This document shows positions 30,899 to 63,144 of a stretch of DNA of 64,000 nucleotides, piece after piece. The notes below the pieces were generated by a model that was not told the origin of the DNA, did not search any database, and worked only from the letters and a program-made list of their open reading frames with translations. Made by a program: the position numbers and the translations under genes. Within the stretch, counting starts at the first letter, position 1. Each line of letters opens with the position of its first letter. Source of the DNA: Conchocele bisecta (lineage: Eukaryota > Mollusca > Bivalvia > Lucinida > Thyasiridae); NCBI GenBank assembly GCA_029237695.1, contig CM055265.1, forward strand, positions 45,067,331 through 45,131,330. The letters are read 5' to 3'.

Positions 30899-31114
30899 AG
30901 TATATAGGGAGTCTACGAAGTGGTGGTATCATTTTCACCCCTCTACACTACCCCCACCACCCCCGAAAAATCAAAAATTGGTTAACGAGGAAATTGTCCC
31001 CCACCACCCCCGAAAAATCCAAAGATTGGTGTCATAAATACATCATGTTTTTTTTCACGTCCAATTGAACAGATAAAACTATACTAATAAAAAGGATTTG
31101 TTTTCGTCTCGTTG

Positions 31115-31418
31115 TCATATTGGTGTCATAAATACCTCATGTTCATTTTTCAACACGGCATTTTCCTCCTCCACTATAGCTAATTTATTCCGTAGATCAG
31201 CAACTAATTCTACCAACTCTAGTCTACCACGTTCACCTGTAGCCACCTGACAGCGTAGTTGCTTATGTCTACAAAGAGTTTGGGCACTAACGAATTTACA
31301 AGGGCATCTGGGGCATTGAAATTGTGGGGGGGACACAAGGAAACTTTCTACGTCTCGCTAGATGCCTTCGTAGATAGTCTTTACGCGTAAACGTCTTACA
31401 ACAAGTCTCACACTTCAT
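31115..31418 (-). pseudogene. TIR-encoded zinc-finger/coiled-coil gene, left copy
   Basis: The ATG at 31418 opens a frame whose first finger is CETCCKTFTRKDYLRRH (Cys-x2-Cys-x12-His spacing) with a Cys further on. A second finger, CPRCPCKFVSAQTLCRHKQL then RC, and a leucine-rich coiled coil (LVELVADLRNKLAIVEEENA) follow in another frame. A run of seven G on the plus strand near 31326-31332 (six in the right copy) causes the shift. Transcription would run from inside the element towards its end. A DNA-binding regulator of the element is a fair guess; function unknown. Confidence 0.65.
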
Positions 31419-31447
31419 TATATATGTATATGTATATGTTTATATTC

Positions 31448-31489
31448 AATTGGTCGTGAAAAAAACATAATGTTTTCACGACTAATTGA
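31448..31489. repeat. hairpin at the inner edge of the left TIR
   Basis: CAATTGGTCGTGAAAA and TTTTCACGACTAATTG pair around AAACATAATG. The mirror copy is at 48330-48371. It sits between the outward-reading zinc-finger gene and the inward-reading gene at 31531, so a promoter or terminator role is possible. It also shares CAATTGG with the interior palindromes. Confidence 0.6.
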
Positions 31490-31530
31490 ACAGATAAATT
31501 TCATAGGTTATAATAAAATATTATTACAAA

Positions 31531-31905
31531 ATGGATAATAAAATACGCAACGAATTGGAATCTTGTAATGTCTTTGTTGAAGAATTTGACGATGTTTCTA
31601 CAGCATTAAAACAGTGTAAAATGAGAACACTATGCGATATCGAATACATGAAATATCAGCATAATTTAATACGCTCCGATAAAAACGTTGCATTTACAAT
31701 ATTATACCGGCAATTATGTCGCTGGTACAAGTATCAAATTTGCGTAATGAAGCGACTAAATAGGATCGGAGAAACACTACCGAAACATTATCAAACTAAT
31801 TTTATAAAACAGTTTAAAATCAACGATTCGTTTACGGATATGCGTTTCTACGATATCACTTTTAACGAAGAAATTGGAAAATTATTATTAGAAATTGGAA
31901 ATTGA
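31531..31905 (+). CDS. unrecognised 124-residue Polinton protein
   Basis: Starts MDNKIRNELE, 19 bp inside the TIR. It is Cys- and Tyr-rich, largely helical in appearance, with no motif I recognise and no membrane segment. The frame is intact. A damaged tandem duplicate follows at 31933-32280, which supports it being a real gene. The leader ATAAAATATTATTACAAA before the ATG is AT-rich like those of other genes in the element. Confidence 0.6.
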   Translation: MDNKIRNELESCNVFVEEFDDVSTALKQCKMRTLCDIEYMKYQHNLIRSDKNVAFTILYRQLCRWYKYQICVMKRLNRIGETLPKHYQTNFIKQFKINDSFTDMRFYDITFNEEIGKLLLEIGN

Positions 31906-33554: not shown

Positions 33555-35259
33555 TTACAAATTAAGTTCAATTAACAATGAGACAATAGTGGAAGAACTC
33601 CCTGGGTCACCGATTTTCATAACAAAGTTAATAACATTACCTTGGGAAAGTCTAATTCGATCATCACCGGCGAACGCAACAATCGTCGAACTATCTCCAG
33701 AGATTTTAGTGACTCCAACCCCCCGTTCTTCCCCATCTACTACAATATTTATCCCGACCGCGCCCAAAGGTTTACCACTACCATTAACCGAGCAGACCGC
33801 CATTTGGATAACTTCACCTGCGGCTGTCATAGTGTATCCCCCACATTTATTACTCGCTTTGGCACCGAACGAATATTGATAGTGCCCCTCAACCAATGGG
33901 CCCCGCTTCTCAGCCCAAACTGTTATGGCACGTTTTGGTGTTTTCATTGTTCGCACTATTCCGGCAAGCGCACTGTTTGCGTTATATGCCTCAGTACGAA
34001 TCGTATAAGAGGCCTCCTCAAGAGCTTTGGTCGCGGCTATACGATCATGTTTCAGTTTATCGGAAACTTCGGTTATCTTTCCGTCTAGTTCGGTAAGTGC
34101 CGCTTCTCTGCTGAGAGAGTCCTCTAAGCGCAACGCATCATAAGCCTCCGTAATGGTCGCCTGGTGGCCTTCTAGGGCTTTTTCAACACCCAACCGGGCC
34201 TCTTTTTGAAATTCGGTTATTTTCCCGTCTAGTTCAGCAACCGCCGCTTCTCTGATGAGAGAGTCCTCTGAGCGCAACACCTCATAAGCCTTTGTAAGGT
34301 CTTCTCGGGCTTTCTCAATACCCGTTCGGACCCCCTCAACCCCCAACCGGGCCTCCTTTCGAAAATCTGTTATTTTTTCGTCTAGTTCAGTAAGTGCCGC
34401 TTCTCTGTTGAGAGAGTCCTCTGAGCGCAACGCCCCATAAGCCTCCGCAATGGCCTCCTTGTGGTCTTCTCGGACCCCCTCAACCCCCGACCTGGTCTCT
34501 TTCAGAAATTCGGTTATCTTCGCTATTCGTAAGGCGTCTATCCGAAGTGTCGCTTCTAAGGTGGTCTTAGTCGTTCTTTACTTGAGAGAGTCCTCTAAGC
34601 GCAACGCATCATAAGCCTCCGCAATGGCCTCCGCAAGTTCGACGGTGGTCTTCTCGGACTTTATCAATACCCGACCGGGTCTCTTTTCGAAATGTTATAT
34701 CTAGTTCGGCAACCGCCTTTGCTTCTCTTATGAGAGATCCTCTGAGCGCAACACCTCATAGACCTCCGTAAGGTCCGGTACTTCTCGGGCTTCTCAATAC
34801 CCGACTGGCCTCTTTTCGAAATTTGGTTATTTTTTTACCTTGTTCGGTAAATGCCGCATCTCTAATGAGAGAGTCCTCTAAGCGCAACGTAAGGGCCGCC
34901 TGGCGGTCTGCTCGGACTTTATCAATATCCGACCTGCTCTATTTTCGAAATTTGGTTATTTTTTTACCTAGTTCATTTAGTTCCGTTTCTCTGATGAGAG
35001 AGTCCTCTGAGCGCAACACCTTATAAGCCGCCTGATCTTTCTCAATTTGTGCAGTCGCCGTCAGCACTTCTACTCTAACATCTGATATACTCCTGTGAAT
35101 CCCGTTTGTGACCTTCGATATAGTTTTATTGATCAGGGCCTTGGTTTTTTCAGTAGTTAAAAAGTCGCCCTCTGTCGGGATGAATCCACCTTCTGCCGGT
35201 TCCAAATTCTTTGAATTTGTCACCCAATCGGAAGAACTACCTGGTCCGTATATACTCAT
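33555..35259 (-). pseudogene. fibre-like virion protein with repetitive coiled-coil shaft
   Basis: The N-terminus (35259-34939) starts MSIYGPGSSSDW. The shaft has about seven imperfect 45-50-residue repeats, marked by LRSEDSLIREA and GKITEF, with DNA units near 34120, 34265, 34417, 34587, 34733, 34872 and 35008. The last 125 residues (to 33555) are Gly/Val/Ser-rich and beta-like, as in a receptor-binding knob. The frame is broken by stops and shifts between about 34430 and 34940, while 34430-33555 is open. An N-terminal anchor, repetitive shaft and globular head suggest an attachment fibre; this is structure-type inference, not homology I can name. A 27-bp block at 35202-35228 is shared exactly with 41908-41934. 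Confidence 0.65.
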
Positions 35260-35336
35260 TCTTAAAATTAATTATAATATTGGGCACCTATACTCAATTG
35301 GAAATTTCGAGAACTACCGAAATCGGGTAATAATTT

Positions 35337-35978
35337 TCAACTTTCTCGCTTGATCATCGAGAATAGAGACCGTAAATTCGTGGATATGTCCCGATTCCAA
35401 AACTTCATCTCGGGGTGTGGGAAGTCTAAGGTCACAGTCTCGCCATAGAAACAGTCGCTGGCGGGCACAGTTTTCAGTAATGTGCTGGGGGATCCGTCTA
35501 CCGTGTTGTACGATGTGTTCACCCGATCCAGGTGCACCCTGAGAGTTTTCGTGAAGGTGAAGTCCACCGGATTATCACCGACGTACTCACCCGGGGTAAA
35601 CACTCCTTTGTTTGAGGAGTATGTCTCTCTAAAACCGAGTGGAATACCCAACCCCGGGGAGACCACTACCTTATTATCACTGCTGATGGTCATTGTTGCG
35701 AGCCCTGTAGCATTCGATAGTGTGAGGTTGATTATACCCTCAAGCTCTGAGTTGACAAAATCTTTGAGCTGTCTTATTCCCCACAGTCTGTGAGGCAGCT
35801 TTACACCTAATTGTTGTCCATCCTTCACATAGTAAAACCCTTCACTCTTTCCCACATTCTGCCACCCAACCGTGAAGGTGATTGATCTGAGGCCTACCCG
35901 GTGTTTTCCGCAGCAGTTGTCGATTGATTTTTGAAGTTCACAACTCCCTTTTTGAACATTAGTGATAGTAGCAAACAT
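35337..35978 (-). CDS. beta-rich putative minor virion protein
   Basis: I choose the Met at 35978 (MFATITNVQKG) because the upstream Met at 36008 would overlap the divergent gene. About 213 residues, rich in Thr/Val/Gly with alternating hydrophobic residues and few helical stretches, no membrane segment, open to TGA at 35337. A conserved-looking C-terminal part contains SPSTLLKTVP and YGETVTLDF. It lies between the fibre-like gene and the divergent structural genes, which suits a penton-like or fibre-anchoring protein, but I cannot prove that. Confidence 0.6.
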   Translation of the reverse strand: MFATITNVQKGSCELQKSIDNCCGKHRVGLRSITFTVGWQNVGKSEGFYYVKDGQQLGVKLPHRLWGIRQLKDFVNSELEGIINLTLSNATGLATMTISSDNKVVVSPGLGIPLGFRETYSSNKGVFTPGEYVGDNPVDFTFTKTLRVHLDRVNTSYNTVDGSPSTLLKTVPASDCFYGETVTLDFPHPEMKFWNRDISTNLRSLFSMIKRES

Positions 35979-35992
35979 AATAATATCTTTCA

Positions 35993-36292
35993 ATGGATAC
36001 CAAAGCATTTAGCTTTAACTCTAATGCAAAGTACGCGGTCGGAGGTAAATACACGCAAGAAGACGTTGTTAACCACCTTGTACATCCAACCGTAACGGTT
36101 AGACCGGACAGTGGCTTTGCCACCAATTTCCCTAACACGTTTGAGAAATATAGGCTGCCCAAGATTAATACGATGGAGGCGGTAAACGGGTGGAAATGCA
36201 ACACCGATGCAGTTTTGGCAGAGAACCAAAATAAAATTTCGCTGTATGGTGCGCAACAGCCAGGTGTGGAGTTTCACATAAAGACCATCTGA
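35993..36292 (+). CDS. small conserved Polinton protein, 99 residues
   Basis: Intact frame starting MDTKAFSFNSNAKYAVGGKY, with a Pro/Thr-rich middle and the C-terminus GVEFHIKTI. No membrane segment. Its ATG is only 14 bp from the divergent start at 35978, so the two genes must share control sequence or overlap each other's leaders. It is the first gene of a rightward group (35993, 36307, 36683). Role unknown; a minor virion component is possible from its place. Confidence 0.6.
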   Translation: MDTKAFSFNSNAKYAVGGKYTQEDVVNHLVHPTVTVRPDSGFATNFPNTFEKYRLPKINTMEAVNGWKCNTDAVLAENQNKISLYGAQQPGVEFHIKTI

Positions 36293-36306
36293 CATCCAAG
36301 AATGTC

Positions 36307-36681
36307 ATGCTCCGAAGTGTCTACAACTTTCACGCGTATTATACTATTAGGAGGATTCTCAAAGAACGAGGTATTTCACTACCTCAAGACGACGCCTGGG
36401 ATCCCATTTCCAACACATACGACTGTATGGCGTTTGAAAGACTGTGTAACGAATTTAGCGTTTCAAAAGACGCGGACTGGAGACAGAAAGCATTTCCTAC
36501 CAGCACCGGCCTCGGGGACGTTCTCATTCGGGGCCAGTCCGGAAATTGGACGCAGACTGATTTTAGACACGATCACTCCGGTGACCACATCGTCAGTCGG
36601 AACGCCGGGAATTTTGACCACGCGACTATGACTTTCGGGCCGGAAGTGTCTGGAGGTTGGCACTGGCATGTTTTCTTGTAA
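36307..36681 (+). CDS. conserved Polinton protein, 124 residues, possibly truncated
   Basis: Open frame from MLRSVYNFHAYYTIRRILK to GGWHWHVFL. It has several His and Trp residues near the end (DHSGDHIVSRN, GWHWH) but no Cys-His-Asp/Glu arrangement expected of the adenoviral-type protease, so I do not call it that. An upstream ATG at 36302 is in another frame. It ends two bases before the ATG of the next gene (36683). Confidence 0.55.
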   Translation: MLRSVYNFHAYYTIRRILKERGISLPQDDAWDPISNTYDCMAFERLCNEFSVSKDADWRQKAFPTSTGLGDVLIRGQSGNWTQTDFRHDHSGDHIVSRNAGNFDHATMTFGPEVSGGWHWHVFL

Positions 36682-36682
36682 A

Positions 36683-37429
36683 ATGTTACCTCCGAAACGG
36701 GCTCACGTCGATTACATACAGCAGGCTGCTGAGGTTCAGGACGCGTGGGGTACATTTATGTTAGATAAGGGTATAGGGTTCACGCAGGCCGGGGTTACTC
36801 GCGTCAATGACTCCATTCGCACATACGTCTGAGCCATCCTCGGCGCACAGAAGCAAACTCGCAGTTCTATACTGGGCACAGGAACAGCGTTTGATGCACA
36901 AAAACAATTCTTGGCACTTGTAGAGGACGCCATCTCAGCTAGGGTGGACCTGGAGAAGGCGATCCAGAATTATCAAGACGTTTTGCAGAATGCCAGCACC
37001 CCAGTAGACTATGTATTTGGAATAGGTCTTTATATGGCGCCGAGCAATATGATACTACGAGACGACCCGGTTGACGGTTACAATAATCAGATCGTAATCG
37101 CCACCGCCAATCAAAAAATCGGCCACAACGGTAACGTGAACACGGATATCATCAAGCGCACCCCCAACATGATCGGGCGCGGAATTGAAAAAGATTTCAT
37201 AAAACCCCCAATTCACGAATTGGCCACCCCATCAAGTTCATTTGAACCCGTTGTTTCACCCACACCCCCAATTCACGAATTGAGTTCCCCCAATTCAATC
37301 GTCAACAGACCAATCGCGACACCAATCAATCGCAAATTGGGTGAAATTGGAAGCACAAAACACGAGGAGGAGAAATTAGGGCTCGTCGTCGCCCTCGTGG
37401 CGATAGGACTACTCGCGCTTTGGTTGTAG
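36683..37429 (+). pseudogene. putative minor virion protein with C-terminal membrane anchor, one stop
   Basis: The ATG at 36683 opens a frame to 37429 that is interrupted only by TGA at 36830-36832. Its codon could be a CGA changed by CpG decay. Visible parts: a helical N-terminal half (LEKAIQNYQDVLQNAS), IATANQKIGH, two short PPIHEL segments encoded by palindromic repeats (37205-37223, 37265-37281), and a final hydrophobic helix LVVALVAIGLLALWL. It overlaps the convergent gene at 37409 by 21 bp. Confidence 0.65.
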
Positions 37430-38758
37430 GAACTTCCAATCTCGATTGGTGGCAGAGAATAGTAGGAGACCGGCGATTGCCACGATTAAAGCCCAAGTAT
37501 TATTGGCGAGCCATCCGACCGTTTTTGATAATATAGATAACAAGTAAGAAACGATACTTCCGATCAGTTCAGGTAGTGCGGCAGCCGCCTTTCCAGTTAA
37601 TTTAGCTAAAAGATTGGCGAGGGCTTTTAGTTGTTTTTTTACCCACTCCTTGGCTCCACCGGATGGCGCGGGTGCTGGTGGTGGTGGTGGTGGTGGGCGC
37701 CGCACCACCAGTGAAAGCTAGAACTATGGTTGATATAGTCATGCCGACAGCTGCGAGGATGCTTGCTATCGTGACGCCCTGCTCTCTGAACAGAGTGCGA
37801 AGACCGCTACACCGAGTGTCGTGTCCTCATGCACCCTTGAACCCTTGATTGTTTCGCGGATCCGACTTATTTGTGTGCGGAGAGCCTCACGGTTAGCCGA
37901 GGCGGCCTCCAAGCGAGCTTCTCTTTCGTCCCGCAAAGACCGCAGTCGTTCGGCGATCCGCTCGGTAGATTCTCTATCATCACCGGCTTCCTCCTAGTTT
38001 TTCTTTCTTCTAGCGCGATATGTTCATCCAGCGCCGTGAGTTTGGAGAGGATTAAGGACCAGTTCGCCCCGGACCATTTGTAGAGCCTTATCGAGTCCAC
38101 GGAGTTCGCGAAGAGGTAACGGTTGGTCATCGTTGAGTATTTCCCCCAATTGCGATTGGACGCTGAACGTGGTCTCCATCGTGTTAATAACGTCGGTGGC
38201 TATTTGAGGGACCTCGCTGAGCTCTACCGTTTCTATCGCGGCGGCCGTCTTCGCCATCGTTTCGTCGGTAGACTGTAGGGCCGCTACAGCGCGGGCCGGC
38301 ATAATTGGTTTACCACGCTTCCAATCTGGAAATCCTAGTTCGCTCCTTATGATTTCGCCACCGCCCCGTTTTCCAGCAATGGTGTTTAGCGATAGGGGTT
38401 TTCCGGTCTTCATGTTGACGATCGGGTTATCTGATGCTTTTAGTCGCAACCTACCATGCATATCCAATTCGAACTTGGAGTAGTCTCGACCGACATATGG
38501 GACCAGATCTTTTTCTGCCAAATTGTTGTAGTAGTCGTTTACAGCTCCCTCAAGTAATTCCTGACTTTGACTTTGACCAACGCTGCGGGTAGCGCCACCT
38601 ATTTCCCCCAATTGCGATTGGATTGGAACTGGAGTCTCTATGAAGGGCGTATCACCATAATCATCGACGTAATCGTTATAATCATCGACGTAATCGTTAT
38701 AATCAGCGTAGTACTCTTCTCTGCCGATTTCATCCATTTCAACATCGTAATCAGCCAT
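37409..38758 (-). pseudogene. large membrane-associated Polinton protein, multiply frameshifted
   Basis: Starts MADYDVEMDEIGREE with acidic DDYNDYVDDY repeats, then a basic/polar domain to about 38060. Frame changes near 38055, 38003, 37803 and 37690 break the rest: an ERLRSLRDEREARLEAA coiled coil, a hydrophobic segment near 37790-37710, a proline run (37660-37700), an amphipathic VKKQLKALANLLAKL stretch and a C-terminal membrane helix (NNTWALIVAIAGLLLF). The final 99 codons (37708-37409) are open. The ordered pieces show one ancestral gene. Two QSQLGEI peptides come from identical palindromic DNA at 38139-38160 and 38602-38621. Confidence 0.65.
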
Positions 38759-38816
38759 ATTAATTATTTATTAAAGACAAAACCATACGGGTTTAATAGT
38801 TTCAATAAAATTAATT
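38759..38816. promoter_or_regulatory. bidirectional AT-rich spacer before the capsid gene
   Basis: Only 58 bp separate the divergent starts at 38758 and 38817. Each ATG is preceded, on its own strand, by a very similar leader: AATAAATAATTAAT on the left and AATAAAATTAATT on the right. Comparable AT-rich leaders precede the genes at 35259 (ATTATAATTAATTTTAAGA) and 42157 (AATAATTATA). A common transcription signal is inferred from position and similarity alone. Confidence 0.45.
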
Positions 38817-40120
38817 ATGTCTTCGAGTCAATACGGTCGCAAACTCAATCCATACCGCAGACTGCGTGAGCCCCTCGGGGCAAAAGGCGTGAGACAGAGT
38901 GTCGTTATTACGAACAACCCATCGACGATCGACCAGAACCAGCAGCTCTTGGTCCGCTTCCCCAACCTTGGAACTCACGACGTCATTGTGCCGGGTACTG
39001 TTCGCCTCGCTTTCACTATTTCGCTAACGTCGACGGACGCGGACCGAACCGTCGTTCAGAACCTGGGTCGCGCCATAGTCAAGAAGACTATGATAAAGAT
39101 TTCTGGTAATGAGGTGATGTCGATCGACGACAGTGACGTCTACCATTGCTATCAGGACCTGTGGAAGACGGCACAAGAGCGCGAAAACGCTGTCTATCAG
39201 GGTATTGACACCAGCAAAAATAAGAACGTAACCAGACTTAGAATCGGGGCTGGTGACAAGTCAGATAACAACGCGAGTGACAACACGATCGCGGCCGCTT
39301 ACGGCAACCGCTTCTACATTCCGCTCGACTTTGAGTTGCTGAAGAGTCACATGCCCTAATATCAGAGTGCTTTGGCTGACCGCCTCGAATACGAACTAAC
39401 GTTCAACGACTACGGCCGAGTTCTCATAGCCAGCGACATGTTATCGACGTATACGATCGACAATGTTTCGCTGGAGTACGACATGGTCACGATGCCCAAA
39501 CTCGCGCGATTGATCAGAACCCAGTACGCCGGGCGCGTTGCCATACTTTACGACCGTGTTCTTCGCCATCGCAAGATGACGAAAGACAAAGGCGACACAT
39601 TGTGGAATATTAATGTCAACGTACCCGCCCGCTCTATGAAAGGTATACTGATGCTGTTTGAGGATGCTCGGTTCGCGTTTGGTGCTCGAAAAACCGACAA
39701 ATTCTATAACCCCAAAATCACGAAGGTAGAGGTGACGATCGAGGGAGTACCCATCAAAACTCTAACAGCGCGGGTCTTCGCGCGCACCAGCAGTGGGACG
39801 AAGTAAGAAAGCAGTTTGCTGCAGGCTCTAAGCGCTCTCCGGAGGTTGCAGCAGTTGCCAAAGACCTGCATCTCTCGGCCGTCTCCCTCGCGGAGTTCCT
39901 GAATACCAAATACGCGTTATGGCTAGACATGCGAGCCAGCGACGACGACCAAATACACGGCAGCGGACGCCACGTTGAGAACGCTAGCGAGGGTGTGACG
40001 ATCCAGATAACCAAAGAGGCGGATGGAAATGGCGCATTGAACGTGTACTTATATATAATTACGGACGCACAACTCAACATCGAAGATCTAACGATTTATT
40101 TATTAATTCTAAAGAATTAA
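38817..40120 (+). pseudogene. major capsid protein (double-jelly-roll type), one stop and one frameshift
   Basis: The ATG at 38817 (MSSSQYGRKLNPYRR) leads into a beta-rich protein. TAA at 39357-39359 interrupts the frame, which then continues in the same phase to 39806. Between about 39745 and 39790 the phase changes and the C-terminal part (SDDDQIHGSGRHVENASEG, NVYLYIITDAQLNIED) runs to 40120. About 434 codons in all. Length, beta-rich composition, position before the ATPase and the strongly conserved C-terminal block fit the Polinton major capsid protein, which builds the icosahedral shell. The two lesions would prevent a full protein from this copy. Confidence 0.8.
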
Positions 40121-40737
40121 TTAGCAATCAATACCAATTCACGATTGGAGATGCTCACTCTGCCATAATATGTGGGCAGACAGGATGTGGAAAAACGGTT
40201 TTCATCCTAGACTTGCTCGAGGGCTCCTACCGCAATGCCTTTCGTCATATTGTGATCCTGTGTCCCACTGTGAGGCACAATGATACTTATCAGCGGCGCC
40301 CGTGGATATGGACCGACCCTGAGGTATACGTTATTGACCCCGGTGATAGGCTTCACGATTGGCTGCGTGGTTTATACCAAAAATTCCAGGGTGAGCCCAC
40401 CCTATACGTGATTGATGATTGCTCAGCCAAGGCGGCGATGACCAAAAAGAAGGACATGCTCTCCGAGCTCGCATTTTCTGGCCGCCATGCTAGGCAAAGC
40501 GTATGGATATCCACTCAAAAGTACAACGCCGTCCTGAAGGATCTGCGCGAGCAAACGAAATGGGTCGCCCTCTTTCACTGCAAGGACCGAGACTCATTCG
40601 ATGACTGTCTTCGAGAGAATGACGTTATCCCAACGCGCGAGGAGCGCCTGGAGGTTCGACAGATGCTTTCGGAAACTAAGCACGCCAAGCTTTTGCTAAA
40701 GACTGATCAACCAACTGCTTACGAAGTTATCAATTAA
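40111..40737 (+). CDS. genome-packaging ATPase (FtsK/HerA, A32-like), start codon lost or unclear
   Basis: Would power DNA entry into a capsid. Walker A GQTGCGKT is at 40174-40197, Walker B LYVIDDCS near 40403-40426, followed by SGRHARQSVWISTQKYN (sensor/Arg region). About 200 residues, compact like other Polinton ATPases. The frame is open from before 40111 to 40737, but no ATG is found between the capsid end and Walker A; only a TTG at 40213 lies inside the domain. The real start was probably mutated, or sits upstream overlapping the capsid end. A palindrome (CCAATTCACGATTGG) at 40134-40148 lies in the N-terminal codons. Confidence 0.85.
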   Translation, partial: KELISNQYQFTIGDAHSAIICGQTGCGKTVFILDLLEGSYRNAFRHIVILCPTVRHNDTYQRRPWIWTDPEVYVIDPGDRLHDWLRGLYQKFQGEPTLYVIDDCSAKAAMTKKKDMLSELAFSGRHARQSVWISTQKYNAVLKDLREQTKWVALFHCKDRDSFDDCLRENDVIPTREERLEVRQMLSETKHAKLLLKTDQPTAYEVIN

Positions 40738-40841
40738 TTAATAATAATTTTTTTTTTTAAAAATTAAGAAATTACTTAGCTCTTAATTTTAAGAAAATTA
40801 GTAACTGCCAAGTAAATGCTTAACAATTAATTTAGCAATTG

Positions 40842-40937
40842 CTGAACAATGCTGAACAAATGCTGAACAATGCTGAACAAATGCTGAACAAATGTTGAAA
40901 AAATGCTGAACAATGGTTAACAATGTTAACAATTTGG
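40842..40937. repeat. GCTGAACAAAT minisatellite
   Basis: Seven to eight units of 10-12 bp (AATGCTGAAC, AAATGCTGAAC, then AATGTTGAAA, AATGGTTAAC, AATGTTAAC). They lie in the AT-rich spacer after the ATPase and run into the ATG at 40923. They could be a protein-binding array for downstream transcription or a slippage product. Confidence 0.75.
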
Positions 40938-41605
40938 TGCTCCGCTGCGAGCTTTGTTGCGAGCATAATGGTGATCATAAGTATCGGGTGGTGCGCTTGG
41001 CAATATGTTAAAGTGATGAGAGTTGTTAGAATAGTTAAATTAATTTTAAGAAAAATGAACTGCGATGAACTTCTCGATCAGCTAATAGAAGAAACCTCAA
41101 CTCCGACTGCCAACAATAATGATCCGACAGAGCAATCGGAATCAACTCCAACGGCGGTTGGTATTGGGTTGAGTGCAACGACTCCGAATGAAAATGAAAA
41201 TGCGGCGCGACGAGAGCGGCTAGCTGCGCTGGTTGCTTGTGGGGGACAATCGGAGCATTATCTCGGTAGCGTCTCTCAGTTTTTCAGGTGGATAAGATGT
41301 CAGATGCGGAGATCGATAAAATGTATGCGCGATACGAATCTAGGTTAGGTGCGGAGATGACAAAAACTCTCGGATTGGCGGCTATTCATTTGTACGCAAC
41401 CGCCGTTAGTATACTTCTCCCTATACCAAACACCGCGGGGTTGATTGATGATCTAGAGACTGACCCTTTTATAGGTCACACTCTTAGAACAGCCTGCTGC
41501 TCAATTTATCACAAGTTTGGAATGTACTTAGCTCCGCTGACAACCGCGTTGACCACGTGTAAACAGTCAATTTGGACATATATGCCCATGAACTATAAGC
41601 CCTAA
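40923..41605 (+). pseudogene. small Polinton protein gene with one frameshift
   Basis: From 40923 the frame gives a membrane-like segment (CSAASFVASIMVIISIGWCAW) and then MNCDELLDQLIEE (ATG 41055, the alternative start). Near 41270-41287 the phase changes into VDKMSDAEIDKMYARYESRLGAEM and runs to 41605 through a mostly helical domain ending near YLAPLTTALTT. The join lies at a T-run (TTTTTC), typical of a one-base indel. Function unknown; conserved-looking, helical. Whether the membrane segment belongs to this gene is uncertain. Confidence 0.6.
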
Positions 41606-41607
41606 TT

Positions 41608-42151
41608 TTGAAAATGATGACACAAGACATACCAGCGAGAGTGACGGAGTTGAACCCGATTGCTCCAACCCAATCGAACCCGAGTGTTACTCCACCACTG
41701 GATGACATACCGCATATAAAAAATCCCAAAAGACAGGCAGCTGGGCGGGCGACGGCTGCCACCCGAAAAGTTAAACAAGATAAAATACTCGCCGAGCTTC
41801 GAGAGGCTAAACTCCAATCGAGATTGGGGTTGCAATCGGAGACGGCAAAACATCTGAAGACAGAGTTGAGTACAACAACACCCCAAATTCACGAATTGGA
41901 AGCACACCCAAATTCTTTGAATTTGTCACCCAATACCAACTTGCCGTTGGAGTTGGGCGAATCCGATTGAACCCAAATTCGTGAATTGGAGTTGGGTTGT
42001 TGGTGGTGGTCTGGCAGTTGTTGGTGCCCTGTGCGTGTGGAAATACCCGAAAAAACAACCAGCCAGTGTACAGAGGAAAGTTACGAAACACCAATCGCGA
42101 TTGGATGCGCCCCATTTAAACATTGATCGCGACCCCTTTTATATGCAATAA
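41608..42151 (+). pseudogene. basic protein with C-terminal membrane anchor, frameshifted, rich in palindromes
   Basis: Starts MKMMTQDIPARVTELNP, directly after the previous gene. The N-terminal part is Pro-rich then basic (NPKRQAAGRATAATRKVKQD). After a phase change between 41905 and 41990 a membrane segment (VVGGGLAVVGALCVW) and basic tail end in DPFYMQ at 42151. Five palindromic repeats fall inside: 41814-41827, 41881-41899, 41908-41925, 41972-41989 and 42091-42104. Their density at the break suggests that they helped cause it or are tolerated in a flexible linker. Confidence 0.6.
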
Positions 42152-42156
42152 TTATA

Positions 42157-42394
42157 ATGGCTGAACAAGATGGTAAAATGTTAGTGAATGCGCTTTATTT
42201 ATCACGCCGTGGTGATATCGGGTTTCAGTATCGGGTATGCTCGACTATCAAAGATGGCCCTAGGAGGAACCGCTCCCAAATTGGACTTTACTGTGAGAGA
42301 CGTAGGGCTCGCGACCTTAGATGTAGCGGCCGCAGTTTGGACCCGAGATTATCTAGTTAAAGCTGGAATTCTACCAGTTAATATATGGAAATAA
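42157..42394 (+). pseudogene. short Polinton protein gene with one frameshift
   Basis: Starts MAEQDGKMLVNALYLS; after a phase change near 42205-42215 it continues GFSIGYARLSKMALGGTAPKL to PVNIWK at 42394. About 79 residues, with a hydrophobic/amphipathic middle. It abuts the next ATG at 42395 without a gap, as in a polycistronic or tightly packed viral layout. Function unknown. Confidence 0.55.
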
Positions 42395-42826
42395 ATGGCT
42401 TCAATCGCAGTAATAGTAGGTGGTGCGCTTGTAAACGCATTGGCGTTCAGCGGTAGCAACTTTATATTCTCTAAAATGAAAAGCTCGAACGTGGATGAGG
42501 AGCGTAAGCGTCACGATTTAGCTGTAGAACAACTCAATAGCGCAAAGGAAGCGTGGTCGAAAAAACGAACCGCCCATCTGGACTGGGTCAATGAAGAGCT
42601 TCGCCGCGAAAATCACGCCGCACAAACTTTTCAGAACGTTGAAGAAGCCAACCGCGAGTACGCGCTGGCATATCCGCACAAAAGTCTCGATCCAATGGCT
42701 CCCGAGCCCCAACTTTCAGATTTCTATGTACCGTCAGAGGCCCAAAAAGACCGCGAGATCGCGTTCATCGTCGTGGGAATGGGTGTGGTGGGTCTCGTCA
42801 GCTACTATATCCAATTTAGATTTTAA
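42395..42826 (+). CDS. conserved Polinton membrane protein, 143 residues, intact
   Basis: Starts MASIAVIVGGALVNALAF, a hydrophobic N-terminus. A charged coiled-coil segment (about residues 30-85, KSSNVDEERKRHDLAVEQL onward), a Pro-rich part (LDPMAPEPQLSDFYVPS) and a C-terminal membrane helix (FIVVGMGVVGLVSYY) follow. Two membrane anchors with a coiled coil between suggest a membrane-associated virion or assembly factor. No lesion. The AT-rich 58-bp sequence downstream includes TTTTTACA and TGTAAAAA, which can pair. Confidence 0.65.
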   Translation: MASIAVIVGGALVNALAFSGSNFIFSKMKSSNVDEERKRHDLAVEQLNSAKEAWSKKRTAHLDWVNEELRRENHAAQTFQNVEEANREYALAYPHKSLDPMAPEPQLSDFYVPSEAQKDREIAFIVVGMGVVGLVSYYIQFRF

Positions 42827-42884
42827 TTTTTACAAAATTAATAATTAATTTTATTTTTTTTTGTAAAAATATATATATAGAACG

Positions 42885-43157
42885 ATGTTAGTTGACGAAC
42901 TTTATGACTCTATGATCGATGTAGGCTACACTGCCCAAAAACATCGTATAGCTGGTGCAAAGAGTATGATTCGTCTGGCCCGAGATTCTCTCGAGACGTG
43001 GCGCGAGGATGAAAAAGCGGCCACCCTTTTCGCAAAGCGGATGTTAGAATCCTCCACCAATACTGGGGATTGGACTCCTTCATCCAATCTCGATTGGGAG
43101 TTGAGGGATGAATTAGATTCCTCCGAGTTCCTTAAGAACTTAACCAATCGCGATTGA
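42885..43157 (+). CDS. unrecognised 90-residue Polinton protein
   Basis: Starts MLVDELYDSMIDVGYTAQ and is mostly helical and charged. The last third is encoded across two palindromic repeats (43084-43097 and 43144-43156), giving SSNLDWELRDE and LTNRD at the C-terminus. The natural C-terminus may therefore have been changed by the second repeat, whose next in-frame codon is the stop TGA. Preceded by AAAAATATATATATAG. Confidence 0.5.
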   Translation: MLVDELYDSMIDVGYTAQKHRIAGAKSMIRLARDSLETWREDEKAATLFAKRMLESSTNTGDWTPSSNLDWELRDELDSSEFLKNLTNRD

Positions 43158-43262
43158 AATTGTACTTCCAACAAAGGTTTGTTATTATTAACGACGCAGT
43201 TACGGACGAACTGGCGAGGGCATGTTGGAGATTGTCCGATATATTAGAATACTTCGCATGCG

Positions 43263-44295
43263 ATGAACACGCGCAAACTTAATACCAAACTATCGGTTCG
43301 CCTAGCGCGCAAGCTAGCGAACACGTACTATAGCCCCCGCGGGTACTGGAAGGGACTCGCGGCCATCAAGAACCTCGCGGCGGCGACCAAGGTTTCAGAA
43401 AACGCTGTCAAGGAATGGCTCAAGAAGCAGGCCATCTGGCAGATCTATTACCCCCGCGCCTCACAATATTCCGCGCCCGAAATTCGACGTGCCGGTACAG
43501 AACCAAGTTCACTAAGCGGATCTCCTGTTTCTCCCTCACGATCGCGTCGGTCGCAAGTCGATCGCGTCGTACAAGTACGCACTGACAATCTTTGACGTAG
43601 CGAGTTCGTACGCTAGCGAGCCGTTCCACTAAAGATCAAGGAGGTGGCCAGCTCTCTCCCGAATATATAAGAGGAGTCCTCTCAAATGGCCGAATCTTCT
43701 CCAGGTCGATCCCGGCCGCGAGTTCATGGGCGCGGTCTCTCATCTATTGTCTAAGCACGACGTTTCTATCAGACGCGGCCGCGTCAACATCCACCGGGAC
43801 CAGGGGATCGTGGAGCGCTTCAATCGAACCCTGGCTGAGAGACTGTTCGGACACCAATACGCTAAAGAACTTGTAGACCCTCATTCGCGATCGACCGAGT
43901 GGGTGGCCAGACTGCCCGCCGTGGTCTCCGCACTGAACGGAGAGGTGACTAGATTGATAGGTAAGAAGCCTGTAGATGCTATCAAGTTTAAAAGGGTGAC
44001 AAGCAAGCCCTCTGCCGTCTCACGCGGGCGACCCGTTGGTTTAGAGGAGCAACGGCTTCCATCGGATATTGACGTCCGGTACCTCTATCAACCGGGAGAG
44101 CTCGAAGGTGGCAGCCGCCGCGCGACTGATCCTGTGTGGTCTCTCAATGTATCTCATCTAGATCGATCTATTACCAAACCCGATGAGCCCGTGCTCTACT
44201 ATTTGGATGATGGGCCATCTCGAGGTGTTGTTCGCGAAGAACTTCTTATGGTACCTTCTGACACCCAGCTACCCCCGGATCGTCAGAGTCTTTAG
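43263..44295 (+). pseudogene. retroviral-type integrase, broken
   Basis: Would cut and join element ends into host DNA. The N-terminal part (43263 to about 43465, YYSPRGYWKGLAAIKNLAAAT) looks like a helical DNA-binding domain. The catalytic core shows Asp at 43519-43521 (ADLLFLPHD), Asp at 43708-43710 (VDPGREFMG) and Glu at 43813-43815 (GIVERFNRT); the last two are 35 codons apart. From 43726 to 44295 the frame is open and ends in an SH3-like or chromodomain-like region. Lesions: phase changes near 43468, 43625 and 43700, and TAA at 43513-43515. Its start precedes the core by the usual distance. Confidence 0.85.
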
Positions 44296-44419: not shown

Positions 44420-47400
44420 TCATAACGCCATCATTTTAAATCCTCTATTTTGTGCTACATCTATAATGTGTTTTCCATCTTCTGTAGTTTCACTTAGTAC
44501 TCGTTTATATCTATCCCAATTTAAATTGTTAGTTCTCTTGGACATTCCTTTCGCAGAGTTTTTATTAATAGAATTAAATTTTTCTACAAAATAACACTTA
44601 CTAGATAACGCTATCGCCCTATCTCCGCTAAATTCCATTTTGAAAAGTCCGGGCTCTCTTTCGCTCCATTTATCCCAAGCCAACCATTTCTTTTTTTCTT
44701 TTTCAAACCGTCTAGTAAGTTAGGTCTAATCAATTCCTCTATCGTTTTTCCACTAAACTCCTTTTATATCTTACTATCTGTATCCATCTGTATTAATTCA
44801 AAGTCTTCTCTTTTTACGTATTTATCTAGAAATTCGTAGTAAAATTCCAACATTCTCAATTTAGCTAGTTGATAAACCGCTATTCCACAATGGAATGGTC
44901 TCTTTACCGCACACCTCTGGGTTTTCTTGAAGATATTTCGTACGCATCTCCTATCTCTTCCAAATCGTCAAAGAATGCAGATCTTAATGCTTTGTCAACA
45001 CAGGTTTCGTTTTGTGTATATGTGTATTTAAATGTCTCTCCGTTGCCTCTATCATTTTTCCACAACACGAGTTTCCTAATAATTTCATTATGTCGGCTAC
45101 TGGTTTATCTTATTTGGTTCTACATCGCCTGTTCGTCTTGCGGCTGTAACTTCTTTTGCGAACCATTCGAATGGTTTTCCGCTAATATAATCTATAACAC
45201 GATGAACTCCAGTTATTTCTAGGCCGTGTTTTAAATACCATTTCAACAGTGGCGCGTACAGCAATACTTTAGTGGCGGTCATAGATCCCACCAATTTTTT
45301 TCCATCTCCTCTTGTTCGGCCAGTATCTTTTAAATATTTTAACATGTGTGTGGAACTTCATCAACCTCTACTTCTCTGTTTATAAATATTGGGGGACATT
45401 TCAGAAAACTTATCTTTTAAGTTGTGTGAAACTTCTATATCCACCTCCGCAAACCCAAACCAGTCTCCAGATAAAACTCTTTTACAAAACTTTTTAATAA
45501 ATTTTAGGGTTATGTGGGGTATCTATATGGTGTATAGTTTCTCTCTCCCACACGGCATCTCTTTATTTAACGTTAGATAATATACGCGTTTGCATCGTAC
45601 CCCAAAACAGCCTTGCAAGGTTTGGAACCCACTCTAATATTTGAAACACCAGCTTCTGCATATCGTGTAAATACTATTGATGGACCGCCAACTAGAGCGT
45701 CCTTCATCATTTCGTATGTTTCTTCTTTTGGTGCATATAGAGCAATCTCCGGTATAGATTTTTGTTCTTTAATGGTTCCTCTCAATAAATATTGTATAGC
45801 TACTCCAGGTAGTGTTACCGCATCTTTGAAAATATCCACACCTCTGTGTTTATAAAATTCACACATTTTTTCCACCGCTTCTAGGAACGGTGCTACATCT
45901 AAATCGTTATAATATTTCAACCAATCTCTGAAAGTTTTCATATTCTTTTCTTTGAAAATTCTACGACATTTACTTAATTCTGTTTCATCTAGTAACATGT
46001 TCCCAAATAGTTTGGAATACCAATTCTCTATATCCGGTAGTCCTGGGTAATCCAGTTTGTCTGGAGAATCGAACCACTCGTAAGGAAAGAAAGATTTCTG
46101 TCCTTTGCATTCGTAGGCTTTTATCCAACTATCGTAACTTACACCAGGTCCTAGATAAAGTATTACATCAAGAAATCTAATCTCTGGAGTAAATAGAAAT
46201 ATTGTTGCGTTTGCATGTTTTCCGACCATTACTTTCTTTGTTGTTGATGCCAGTTCGCCTACTAGGTATTTCTTTATTAAGTTTATATCGTACTTACTGC
46301 TGTTAAAACCTATAACCGGTACTTGCTCTATCCACTGTTCGATCTTGGCGATTTGATTTTTACGTAAATGTTCTGTATTAAACCTATATCTTGACCACAC
46401 TTCTTCTCTTATAGCTTTTCCCCTGACTTTCAAATCTTCTACGAATTTTTCTATAAGTTTTGCGGGATCTTTATCACAAATATGAGTTACTGTTCCTGAG
46501 AAATTATCTCCTCCTATACTAACGCTTACCGGAACGTGCTCGGCTTCGTACTCTAGATTATTACCGAGAGTTTCAAATTCTGGGTTGAGATATGCCTCAA
46601 AATCGTATACTATCTGATATGGATAAAGAGTAGTGTCGCACCGATCTTTATGTCTTTACCCGTTCTTTGAAATTCGCATTCCCCACATAACTACTAGGTT
46701 GAATTCTTTGCTTCTTCTAATAAATGTATCTCTTCATAGTGATGCGCGTCTTCTTTTCTATGCTTTGCATGAATCCTCACACCCGTGCCAGTAACAGCCG
46801 TGATATTGATATACGGTATTGGTTTCCGTACAGTATCCATCTACTGGAGCTCCTAAAACCCATCTTTCACCCCCGTGTCCACACTGTTCGTGGTGAATGT
46901 GAATTCCCTCGCGCTTTTCCACAGAGTACATCCAATCGATCGCCCCATAACTGTTAGAACTTTTTGGGTAGAACGCTTTCTCGAACGACGAACGCGGGCG
47001 CTCTAAATAATTACCATCACATATTACTTTTGTCTCACCTTTCATACATGTTGGTCCGTGTCTCTTCATATTACTCGCTTTTGTGAATCTCTGTTTACAA
47101 TTATTGTTTTAGATAGGTTTTTAAGGTTTTTTATCAGAAATGCGTGATTATTAAACAGTCCTATTGTCATTGGTTTATTACCTATTTCATTATAGTGTGC
47201 TGGTACCTTTTTCAACCACCATATGTCATATTTGGTCGGTTGATATACTTCTATACCTACCTTAAAAACCTCTTCAACCTTTTTAGATCTGAAAAAGGAA
47301 TTGGTGGAAACAACATTACTACCGAAATATTGCTTACTAAGTTTCTTCCGCTTTTTCTGTACATCTGTCAGTCTGATCTTTTTTTATCAAGTGCATAGCT

Positions 47401-47750
47401 AGACACCTGAAACAGACAAAGATCGTCATTATACTTATCTAAAGAATACATACCTTTTCTATTCCTCAACCATTCTGGAAGTTCTCCTCCTGCTGCTTCT
47501 TTGGATTGTAGTCCCAAATCTATTCCCCTACATGCCCTGTATTAGCTTTATGAAAACCTCTACCCATCTTACAAACTTCCACTTTGTATTCGGTCTGTCT
47601 ATTTTATCGGACATTATTCGTGTTTGCTCCTTATCTGACAGCCATTTTTTATAACGGTTTTCATTGATGATAGTGGTTCGCTACCACCGAGATTTTTGTG
47701 AAATATTAGAGTTTTAGGTTTTCCATTTTTAGTTTCCTCCATATGTTTCT
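44420..47750 (-). pseudogene. family B DNA polymerase (protein-primed type), heavily broken
   Basis: Would replicate the element. On the minus strand, in order: an N-terminal region with YSLDKYNDDLCLF (near 47440), the HEQCGH...VDGYC...YHGCYWHGC block (about 46920-46770), Exo I DFEAY (near 46600), Exo II GFNSSKYD (46307-46285), Exo III YNDLDV (near 45905), palm motif A YDANAY (near 45590), motif B KLLGNS (near 45080), motif C DTDS (near 44780) and a C-terminal part from WSEREPGLFK (44683) to 44420. Only 47069-46758, 46433-45573, 45345-45097 and 44683-44420 are long open pieces; stops and phase changes fill the rest. All catalytic motifs survive as text, so decay is recent to moderate. Confidence 0.88.
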
Positions 47751-47829
47751 AGCTTGTAAGAATATGAATATCTCAAATAAAAATTTGTTGTTAGAAACGG
47801 AGCGAGTTTATCGGACATGCGTTCAGACT

Positions 47830-48282
47830 CGTTAATGTTAATGTTTTTACGAAAGGATAATGTAACTACCCGTCTTCCATTTTCTACCTTTTCCAATGTC
47901 ATCAATCGTGAGCCCCCAATATTTCTTCACCTTTTTCCACACTATCGCGCGAACTATAGATCTTTTATTTGGTATTTGGTCACCTGTGTGTCTAATTTGA
48001 GACAAATTATTTGTGCTTGAAGGTAATTCTTTAGAATTAATTACACTAGCCCTTAGCTCCGCAATACTTTCTTTTTGAATTCTTTTTGTTACCAACTTCC
48101 TCCGTTAGTGAGAGGTCTTTAAATGCCCCTCTTTTATAGGCGCGGGTAAACCGCTTCATAAACGCCTCATTCTTTGTGGCATTTATCAGCTTTGTCAACC
48201 CCCTAACTCTCAACCGTGTACTATAAGTAATCCCTAGAGATTCGACTTCTCTTCTCAAACTTTCTATTTCTGGCGTTATCAT
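47830..48282 (-). pseudogene. N-terminal polymerase region or separate small gene, frameshifted
   Basis: Starts MITPEIESLRREVESLG at 48282, 22 bp inside the right TIR. Basic and helical (RLRVRGLTKLINATKNEAFMKRF), then a phase change near 48070-48095 into SIAELRASVINSKELPSS and KYWGLTIDDIGKGRK. No domain recognised. It reads into the polymerase gene on the same strand without a clear boundary; it may be the polymerase N-terminus or an independent gene next to the TIR. Confidence 0.45.
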
Positions 48283-48303
48283 ATTTTCTGTAATATACTT
48301 TTG

Positions 48304-48906
48304 TATAACCTATGAAATTTATCTGTTCAATTGGTCGTGAAAACATTATGTTTTTTTCATGACCAATTGAATATAAACATATACATATACATATATAATG
48401 GAGTGTGAGACTTGTAAGACGTTTACGCGTAAAGACTATCTACGAAGGCATCTAGCGAGACGTAGAAAGTTTCCTTGTGTCCCCCCACAATTTCAATGCC
48501 CCAGATGCCCTTGTAAATCGTAGCACTGCTTGTAAATTCGTTAGTGCCCAAACTCTTTGTAGACATAAGCAACTACGCTGTCAGGTGGCTACAGGTGAAC
48601 GTGGTAGACTAGAGTTGGTAGAATTAGTTGCTGATCTACGGAATAAATTAGCTATAGTGGAGGAGGAAAATGCCGTGTTGAAAAATGAACATGAGGTATT
48701 TATGACACCAATATGACAACGAGACGAAAACAAATCCTTTTTATTAGTATAGTTTTATCTGTTCAATTGGACGTGAAAAAAAACATGATGTATTTATGAC
48801 ACCAATCTTTGGATTTTTCGGGGGTGGTGGGGGACAATTTCCTCGTTAACCAATTTTTGATTTTTCGGGGTGGGGGTGGGGGTGGGGGTAGTGTAGAGGG
48901 GTGAAA
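48304..48906. repeat. right terminal inverted repeat of the Polinton
   Basis: Reverse complement of 30933-31512. It ends GTGTAGAGGGGTGAAA at 48906, then satellite sequence GTTAAGATCC begins. It lacks the outer 34 bp of the left copy and has an expanded GGGGTG run (48868-48890). A 19-bp duplication lies at 48510-48538. Confidence 0.9.
48398..48716 (+). pseudogene. TIR-encoded zinc-finger/coiled-coil gene, right copy
   Basis: The ATG at 48398 gives MECETCKTFTRKDYLRRH, one residue shorter between the Cys pair and His than the left copy, then CPRCPCK. A 19-bp tandem duplication (CTTGTAAAT...CTTGTAAAT, 48510-48538) brings in TAG at 48521-48523 and shifts the rest; FVSAQTLCRHKQL and the coiled coil continue in another frame to 48716. 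Unlike the left copy, its C-run has six bases and is in frame. The two copies thus carry different lesions. Confidence 0.65.
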
Positions 48907-49078
48907 GTTAAGATCCTTGGGTGAAGCATTTTCAGATTTGGTAAAATGAGTCATCGCTTAATCCAACATCTAAAAATAGCACAATTTTTTTAAAACACAT
49001 ATGAACTCAATGTCACATTCTCCTCTGGTGTTCATGGAGTCAGGTGAGCGAATTAGGGCCATCATGGCCCTCTTGTTT
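48907..49078. mobile_element. Helentron-like module, family alpha, copy C, right part
   Basis: Continues the unit interrupted at 30898 (GTTAAGATCCTTGGGTGAAGC matches 26795 onward), then GTCAGGTGAGCGAATT, the AGGGCCATCATGGCCCT hairpin and TCTTGTTT. A GGTTAAGTTTTTTT minisatellite follows to 49115, as after module A. Confidence 0.75.
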
Positions 49079-49194
49079 GGTTAAGTTTTTTTGGTTAAGT
49101 TTTTTGGTTAAAGTTTTTCGTTATACTATATCTCTTTTGTTAGTGTCCATGCCTCGCCACAAGGCGCGACATGCAGGCCGCGGCCATCTAGTAT
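49079..49194. repeat. minisatellite and GTCGCGCC-family end motif
   Basis: GGTTAAGTTTTTT units, then CCTCGCCACAAGGCGCGACATG and CAGGCCGCGGCCATCTAGT. GGCGCGAC is the complement of the GTCGCGCC caps at 22245, 24832, 28969 and 29034, so this closes at least one of those outer modules around the nested family alpha copies. Confidence 0.5.
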
Positions 49195-49269
49195 TAATCA
49201 AGAAGACAAATATAAAACGACAGCACTCATCAATTATATTTCCTGCATTCTATGGATTAATTAATCTTT

Positions 49270-49483
49270 TGTTCACCGTTACAACACTGCATACCTCTTT
49301 CCTATTGTTTGCAAACAGTGTAGATCCAGATGAGCCGGCTCGTAACGCGCCGGCTCATCAGGATCTGCACTATTTGCGTATATTTTCTGATTTTTAAAAA
49401 TAATGCCCCTTTCTGATGAATTGACTAGTCTGGAAAATAACATGGGAGTGTCCATTCCATTTACTTTGGGGTGAAAGGGTTAA
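49270..49483. mobile_element. TTAA-type MITE (family 2), left end degraded
   Basis: Hairpin GATCCAGATGAGCCGGCTC and complementary GCCGGCTCATCAGGATC, then the TGAATTGACTAGTCTGGAAA block and right end GGGGTGAAAGGGTTAAAA. Same family as 7762-8000. Confidence 0.6.
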
Positions 49484-49787
49484 AAGCGGCACAGATTAGT
49501 GACGCGGGGATTATGGCACGTGTCACCATGGCAAGTCACCACTTTCTAACGATTCATCTCAATTACATCCATTAATTACAAGATGTTTATTTTTACTTGG
49601 AATTAAAAGAAAATGTATTTGTCTACGCTTAAGCACAATGGCTGTAGATTTAATAGAAACTTGTTCCCTAGTGTACAGAGTTGATATTTATTGGTGAGGC
49701 GACAGTAACGGCCAAAATCTGACCAAACCAGACTTAATTCTCGTTTGGCCAATGTAGACCCAGACCAGCTTCTCCGTCTTTGAGGGA

Positions 49788-49905: not shown

Positions 49906-49949
49906 ATAATATTTGGATTCATGATCTTGTGCCTTTGAACATGCATGCA

Positions 49950-50199: not shown

Positions 50200-50339
50200 A
50201 GGATACTATTTGGATTCATGACCTGTGCCTTTGTCAGAAGAATCCTGCTTTAATTTGTGTTCATTTTGTCAAAGTTCAAGGTTGTAGCCCCGTGCAGTCA
50301 CCGGGGCGGGATCAACTGATCCTGAGAATAGTGCTGCAG

Positions 50340-61795: not shown

Positions 61796-61798
61796 TTT

Positions 61799-63140: not shown

Positions 63141-63144
63141 TTCT

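Follow-up and report, generated by a model that had tools for sequence, protein, structure and literature searches.

The window analysed here, a 64,000-nucleotide stretch of Conchocele bisecta contig CM055265.1, holds a Polinton-like element of ~18 kb whose genes between 35 and 43 kb are seeded with a family of short palindromes. The palindrome arms read CCAAT/ATTGG or CCAA(A)TTC/GAATTGG, and the centre between them is in most cases 2–4 bp long. The element is bounded by terminal inverted repeats (TIRs) of ~600 bp: the left TIR (30933..31532, plus strand) is identical to the reverse complement of the right TIR (48286..48906, minus strand) at 586 of 626 aligned positions (32 gap positions). Polintons, or Mavericks, are ~15–20 kb in size between long TIRs. 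Inspection of the flanks by eye revealed no target-site duplication beside the TIRs. The inner part of both TIRs contains a large dyad, TTCAATTGGTCGTGAA...TTCACGACCAATTGAA (31446-31491 and 48326-48372, with small differences between the two), which has the words CCAATT and TCACGA in common with the internal dyads, although in a different order.

A family B DNA polymerase gene occupies several open pieces of the minus strand (44420..48300, limits approximate), as judged by open reading frames (ORFs) and a Pfam DNA_pol_B_2 match on 45573-46433 (2.7e-09; 36.9 bits against a cut-off of 25.8). On the plus strand, the major capsid gene (38817..40120) is apparently broken by an in-frame stop followed by a frame change; its Capsid_N match (38817-39359, 6.5e-05) scores 23 bits, one bit under the Pfam cut-off of 24. 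It is followed by an A32-like packaging ATPase frame (40123..40737, plus strand) with 1133 homologues, the best at 82% identity among the matches listed; the best 120 of the 1133, those listed, all carry PF04665, and the frame's own Pox_A32 score of 20.2 is below the cut-off of 22.8. Upstream, homologues and a structure model resolve the plus-strand frame 36833..37429 into a conserved N-terminal part, a variable linker that holds palindromes and a C-terminal hydrophobic helix. A minus-strand gene, 37409..38767, also looks interrupted; its open pieces, three or more in number (37409-37717, 37766-37993 and 38024-38767), align along relatives of ~425 residues. A candidate retroviral-type integrase at 43633-44295 is assigned by eye, with no Pfam match. 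With stops and frame changes in its genes, as seen in the ORF list, this copy of the element looks decayed. The TIRs and the family B polymerase agree with the first-pass annotation, which had placed the palindromes in a Polinton, a virus-like transposon: the element that carries them is Polinton-like. Proteins closely homologous to those of the element (P0001, P0014, P0015, P0025 and P0164) are filed under metagenome-assembled genomes (MAGs) of Candidatus Thiodiazotropha. These bacteria are symbionts of lucinid clams, so such homologues are probably host transposon DNA inside symbiont MAGs, which would fit a bivalve host.

We counted 17 palindromic sites, where about fifteen had been estimated for roughly 8 kb: ten CCAAT-N0-10-ATTGG starts, two of the form CCAAATTC..GAATTGG, two that are one base short, a pair of AAATTC-TTT-GAATTT type and one CCAAC-GGCG-GTTGG. 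The spacers measure 4, 5, 6, 7 or 9 bp, N4 being the commonest (6 of the 10 CCAAT-ATTGG starts). Three of the 17 are weak members: 37322 (N9), 43057 (N7) and 41148 (other arms). All 17 lie in open pieces of reading frames, nine frames in total, on both strands.

The first site, at 35202..35228, is a copy of the 27-bp repeat CCAAATTCTTTGAATTTGTCACCCAAT, of the AAATTC-TTT-GAATTT type, and reads DWVTNSKNLE in a minus-strand ORF, 34939-35271(-). The frame 36833..37429 carries three plus-strand sites: CCAATTCACGAATTGG (37208..37223, PIHELA), which encodes residues ~126–131 with a predicted local distance difference test score (pLDDT) <50; CCAATTCACGAATTG (37268..37282, PIHEL), which is one base short and where 37264-37282 equals 37204-37222; and the weak CCAAT-N9-ATTGG dyad (37322..37340, PINRKLG). 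Three sites are read in the minus direction: CCAATCTCGATTGG (37436..37449, TNRDW); CCAATTGCGATTGG (38146..38159, VQSQLG), in a loop of variable length and within the 23-bp repeat copy 38138-38160; and CCAATTGCGATTGG(ATTGG) (38608..38626, PIQSQLG), in an N-terminal tail of low pLDDT and within the repeat copy 38600-38622. The remaining sites, where a frame can be assigned, are read on the plus strand. CCAATTCACGATTGG (40134..40148, YQFTIG) follows the capsid gene and precedes the conserved ATPase part, and CCAAC-GGCG-GTTGG (41148-41161, PTAVG) lies in a segment, 41133..41169, that is an inverted, gapped copy of 41928-41969. These are followed by CCAATCGAGATTGG (41814..41827, LQSRLG), CCAAATTC-AC-GAATTGG (41883..41899, PQIHELE), the second copy of CCAAATTCTTTGAATTTGTCACCCAAT (41908..41934, PNSLNLSPN in ORF 41599-41970(+)), CCAAATTC-GT-GAATTGG (41973..41989; its reading frame is uncertain, with PKFVNW in the 41921-42151 frame) and the perfect palindrome CCAATCGCGATTGG (42091..42104, HQSRLD). 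Finally, the weak CCAAT-N7-ATTGG dyad (43057..43073, TNTGDW) is followed by CCAATCTCGATTGG again (43084..43097, SNLDW; 43083-43097 equals 37435-37449) and by the one-base-short CCAATCGCGATTGA (43144..43157), which reads TNRD plus a stop codon that overlaps the right arm. The capsid frame 38817-40120, the polymerase region and the conserved stretch of the ATPase are all free of CCAAT/ATTGG dyads.

Clustering of a convergent dyad within the element

All ten starts of CCAAT-N0-10-ATTGG in the window fall within 37208-43097. Against the ten observed in 35202-43156, 300 dinucleotide shuffles give a mean of 0.11 and a maximum of 2, and an order-2 model of the same segment gives a mean of 0.28 and a maximum of 3; in the comparison with shuffled sequence that the first-pass annotation had proposed, the count is thus far above expectation. 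Both left (1-30900) and right (49000-64000) of the element the pattern is absent, against 0.87 and 0.43 expected. AATTC-N0-5-GAATT occurs 7 times, with 0.14 expected from shuffles. The degenerate pattern CCAATCNCGATTGG, with mismatches allowed and a palindrome scoring on both strands, yields 16 matches (mean 1.52), 15 of them inside the element, and CCAAATTCNCGAATTGG yields 7 (mean 0.89); none of 100 shuffles reaches either count. When all 5-bp dyad words were counted in 35.0–43.2 kb, CCAAT came out on top among the words with G or C (11, the most in 60 shuffles being 4), and TTTTT reached 14.

Chance, composition or an assembly artefact could be suspected given the decayed look of this copy and the frequency of generic palindromes in the flanks, where they are even more in excess (115 against 53.0 and 68 against 24.2) than in the 8 kb of interest (19 against 10.0). 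Other dyad words with G or C also reach 11–17 in the flanks, which means that the mere abundance of some dyad word does not set the element apart. The peculiarity of the element is that one shared arm sequence is confined to it within the window. The shuffle, codon and motif-agnostic controls speak against chance, and so does a set of 32 viral contigs picked for a 16-bp dyad pattern: their 277 kb contain 35 dyads, at most two per contig (three contigs have two), with no cluster, and we take these dyads to be chance matches. We consider an origin by chance or artefact exceedingly improbable.

The excess has a defined geometry. The segment 35.0–43.2 kb holds 23 CCAAT and 25 ATTGG words, of which 21 are in dyads; the other 27 amount to 3.29 per kb, near the density elsewhere (2.2–3.1 per kb). 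Convergent CCAAT-ATTGG pairs at 0–10 bp number 11 against 0.79 under random placement, whereas the opposite order, ATTGG-CCAAT, shows no excess (1 against 0.76). Longer convergent spacings are above random as well (9 against 2.76 at 41–80 bp; 32 against 16.2 at 161–400 bp), as are same-strand pairs at 81–160 bp (25 against 10.5), and we ascribe these to the clustering of the sites. The unit of repetition is therefore the convergent pair.

Such geometry would suit binding sites of a dimeric protein, encoded by the element or the host, that might act in enhancement, replication or packaging, like the baculovirus homologous regions (hr), and be lodged in coding linkers for want of non-coding space. 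Besides the restriction of the excess to convergent pairs at 0–10 bp and the background density of CCAAT words outside dyads, this explanation is favoured by the arms, which as judged by eye are nearly invariant around a centre that usually reads TC-N-CGA on one strand or the other, with the likeness stopping at the arms. A CCAAT box bound by NF-Y was considered, but outside the CCAAT word the sites appear to lack the purines that accompany NF-Y sites. A viral precedent is provided by the hr palindromes, which are bound by IE1 (PMC2834656). Against binding sites speak the varying half-site spacing (4, 5, 6, 7 and 9 bp), unusual for a dimer site, and the location of all 17 sites in open frames. 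Overall, we regard binding sites as the main rival to the explanation favoured below, though a rather unlikely one.

Palindromes within open reading frames

The palindromes use all three codon offsets, as exemplified by QSRL, N[RL]DW and PIHEL, and the same DNA yields different peptides in three frames and on both strands. We compared this with the alternative that the peptides themselves are selected, as short linear motifs in several virion proteins, with the palindrome a side effect of codon choice. Some recurrent peptides point that way: [PQ]IHEL is found three times, spread over two frames, and two frames contain QSQLGEI / NRKLGEIG, whose LGEIG portions differ by synonymous changes. Synonymous recoding of 21 open pieces, which keeps the peptides, loses the dyads: the mean is 0.72 (maximum 5) with pooled codon usage and 1.64 (maximum 6) when synonymous codons are exchanged within a piece, against 11 observed (ten sites, with 38608 scored twice on its coding strand). 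None of 1000 synonymous shuffles reaches 11 under either scheme, and neither does any of 1000 codon-order shuffles. Among these pieces, 39807-40120 was translated in a frame that contains stops, and it includes no start of a CCAAT dyad. Encoding the peptides thus does not by itself require the palindromes.

Two proteins were compared with homologues: that of 36833-37429 (plus strand) and the 38024-38767 piece (minus strand). For the former, 160 homologues were found, of which the best 120 were listed and 39 aligned; the aligned ones agree in their N-terminal part and in a hydrophobic C-terminus, and the linker varies in length and sequence. [IVL]HEL, QS[QR]L, LGEI and N[RL]DW are absent from the 120 listed. 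Looser patterns match five of these by three or four residues (P0133, P0148, P0150, P0166 and P0200; that of P0148 is in the linker), which we take to be chance. In the model of this protein, residues 106–143, 145–156 and 158–171 have pLDDT <50 (whole model 55), and the palindromes encode residues ~126–173. Similarly, QS[QR]L, LGEI, N[RL]DW and PIHEL are all absent from the 28 homologues found for the 38024-38767 piece. In its model, palindrome 38608 lies in the low-confidence tail 10–61, and palindrome 38146 encodes residues ~203–208, where a helix predicted with modest confidence (block mean 58) ends. The ATPase dyad at 40134 precedes the conserved part, where the N-termini of relatives differ. 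As judged from these alignments, the palindromes of the two compared proteins sit in stretches that relatives do not conserve.

Taken together, the mixture of frames and strands, the loss of dyads on synonymous shuffling and the absence of the peptides from the homologues examined show that the repetition is at the level of DNA, which suggests that short repeats are copied as DNA and read as protein. The first-pass annotation had reached the same view from the 27-bp block, and its observation that the block recurs exactly and is read on opposite strands holds. Selection of the peptides we therefore consider very improbable. The absence of the peptides from the listed relatives also bears on binding sites, since those relatives would lack sites in the same frame at these positions.

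Two of the sites allow a closer view of how a palindrome may have arisen. At 37436, on the minus strand, relatives end in A[RK][DE]W without an insert in 22 of 28 cases (two differ, and four lack the end or match elsewhere), and the window reads ATNRDW: the RDW half matches the old [RK][DE]W codons, and TN is a two-codon gain that makes the left arm. The loop with palindrome 38146 has 19 residues in the window and 8–22 in relatives: 8 residues in 16 of the 28, then 10, 11 (three), 12, 20 (three) and 22, with two relatives unparsed and one without the loop. The pattern used to parse the loop gave wrong lengths for P0255 and P0260, in which the loop has 10 and 12 residues, and did not pick up P0250 or P0267. 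The alignments thus indicate a place that is variable in length at 38146, yet a site that does not look like a clean insertion.

These cases weigh on a third alternative, namely that the palindromes are copies of a tiny selfish element that inserts and moves as a unit, a eukaryotic analogue of the Rickettsia palindromic elements (RPEs). The units are discrete, end fairly sharply and are numerous, and they occupy protein stretches not conserved among relatives. However, they are 14–27 bp long, with no longer conserved body and no target-site duplication noticed; no exact copy of a palindrome is found elsewhere in the window, the nearest being one two-mismatch match at 17928; and 37436 and 38146 do not resemble clean insertions. 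In addition, RPEs measure 105–146 bp (PMC2229807). We consider a transposing RPE-like unit improbable and, set beside template switching and binding sites, the least economical explanation.

Searches for relatives' DNA in viral contigs (with single proteins and with alignments) and genome contigs (with alignments), as well as a tblastn search of the ATPase against phages, yielded no confirmed relative. A profile of one protein (A3) gave no match to solved structures up to E 0.1; a fold search was not part of it.

Proposed copying of short inverted repeats

Several sites share more than the arms. Exact shared blocks measure 27 bp (35202/41908), 23 bp (38138/38600), 19 bp (37204/37264) and 15 bp (37435/43083). 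The 27-mer CCAAATTCTTTGAATTTGTCACCCAAT has exactly two occurrences in the window, both on the plus strand, and the 23-bp repeat reported by the first-pass annotation is real, although its second copy ends at 38622, one base beyond the end given there. Two gapped inverted blocks exceed the maximum of 27 reached in 60 shuffled trials: 41133-41169 against 41928-41969, of 42 columns (score 44), and 37322-37350 against 38598-38626, of ~30 columns (score 32). Blast of 35060-43600 finds 28 repeat pairs of at least 26 bits, against a mean of 1.97 and a maximum of 6 in 30 shuffles; the 28 include AT-rich matches and palindromes aligned with themselves. By eye, 41883 and 41973 have the same unequal arms and 2-bp spacers that are reverse complements of each other (AC/GT), and the TC/GA difference of 37436 and 43084 from 41814 is of the same kind.

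Binding would not need the long flanks common to some pairs. A more specific version of the binding-site explanation holds that Polintons carry element-specific dyad recognition sites hidden in the codons of disordered linkers, which we regard as doubtful. If true, the hidden sites would be a dispersed cis-acting system, for packaging, replication or escape from silencing, that reshapes its host proteins; binding sites of any kind would indicate a hitherto undescribed step of DNA binding in the life cycle of Polintons.

The explanation we favour, and to which we give about an even chance of being right, is local copying through template switching during replication, tolerated in unconstrained parts of the proteins; the mechanism is one that we infer. 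Polintons replicate by protein-primed strand displacement. During such replication, or during repair, the growing strand would switch template between short inverted repeats, strand displacement exposing the single strands for it. Each switch could homogenise the arms, invert the spacer and carry neighbouring bases along, so that very short convergent repeats multiply as DNA, in both orientations, within the 35–43-kb gene block of one element. Selection on the proteins would leave copies only where the chain is unconstrained, and the new peptides would be by-products of DNA copying. Template switching between short inverted repeats would account for the homogenised arms, the inverted spacers, the inverted blocks and the in-place assembly. 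Both homogenised arms and inverted spacers are reported as outcomes in yeast (PMC8604942). In-place assembly is illustrated by 37436, with its two-codon gain next to a conserved RDW. Tolerance is supported by the lack of CCAAT/ATTGG dyads in the capsid frame, the conserved ATPase stretch and the polymerase, and by the models, in which the palindromes of the two proteins are mostly at pLDDT <50, with the exception of 38146.

Several points weigh against this explanation. By itself, template switching yields palindromes of any sequence, which leaves the recurrence of CCAAT arms unexplained, as it does the direct copy 6.7 kb away. Most site pairs are alike in the 14–17-bp core only, with a flank score of at least 12 in 3 of 240 pair-orientations against 0.2% of 4000 random pairs. 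The inverted spacers come from comparing different sites of one copy rather than ancestor and descendant, and neither the direction nor the time of any copying can be read from a single copy. The homologue comparison omits the palindrome frames at 35.2, 41.1, 41.6–42.1 and 43.0 kb. Two AATTC-N4-GAATT dyads without CCAA ends also occur in places not otherwise populated, at 40105 (the end of the capsid frame) and at 48025 (the polymerase region). If copying by template switching is nevertheless correct, elements of this kind would be a dense record of replication writing new peptides into viral proteins.

Comparable systems and other repeats in the window

The likeness to Rickettsia proposed in the first-pass annotation is a partial one and does not support membership in that kind. 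Like RPEs, the palindromes lie inside the coding frames of unrelated genes, but RPEs are fused in frame as units of 105–146 bp (PMC2229807), whereas here the units are 14–27 bp and the longest shared block spans 42 columns. A clean in-frame insertion, judged at the protein level, comes down to two extra codons at 37436 and a length-variable loop at 38146.

Palindromic repeats of Volvox carteri organelles (10–100 nt, many copies, hairpin-forming) have been proposed to be selfish DNA; in the mitochondrial DNA they are intergenic or intronic save for one rRNA module (PMC2670323), whereas those described here are inside open frames. Baculovirus hr are, as here, repeated imperfect palindromes in a double-stranded DNA virus of invertebrates, but are 28–30 bp long, grouped in repeat regions and bound by IE1 (PMC2834656), whereas no protein is known to bind the present dyads. 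Nematomorph mitochondrial genes also contain inverted repeats inside protein-coding sequence, although those palindromes extend up to 284 bp with arms that encode conserved residues (PMC6649704), and here one short shared sequence lies in unconserved stretches. Palindromic amphipathic repeat coding elements (PARCELs) are coding repeats with DNA dyad symmetry, associated with mobile elements in some taxa, and form tandem amphipathic repeats of 25 residues (PMC2996958), in contrast to the dispersed pieces of ~5–10 residues seen here. The invading repeats of pithoviruses also spread in a eukaryotic double-stranded DNA virus (PMC10664404), a likeness that we draw irrespective of unit size or placement. 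As judged by titles and the openings of abstracts, none of the papers listed in searches of the open literature on Polintons and palindromes describes a palindrome family in a Polinton.

A further candidate, YNMG-type RNA hairpin loops, was dropped after inspection by eye: some copies lack the loop on the coding strand, and the stems measure only 5–7 bp.

Other repeats are present within and around the element. On the minus strand, 34005-35044 comprises six diverged repeat copies, mostly 144–174 nt apart, in a helix-like coding stretch that is partly out of frame, and a tandem array of a 10–11-nt unit (TGCTGAACAA) occupies 40838-40923, just past the ATPase gene. Outside the element, a palindrome family with the core AATCATTTCC-ANT-GGAAATGATT, or close to it, occurs at 15982-16018, 52353-52409, 54442-54464, 61166-61192 and 63760-63792. 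Three nearly identical 71-bp hairpins with 33–35-bp arms (4605-4675, 4975-5045 and 14840-14910) lie near CAAAGTATACTTT palindromes and are perhaps a non-autonomous DNA transposon. A perfect 62-bp palindrome is found at 13830-13891. Two long ORFs complete the picture left of the element: one of 737 aa at 5409-7622 (minus strand), with a weak hAT dimerisation match below the cut-off, and one of 744 aa at 17200-19434, with a reverse transcriptase domain (RVT_1, 4e-35).

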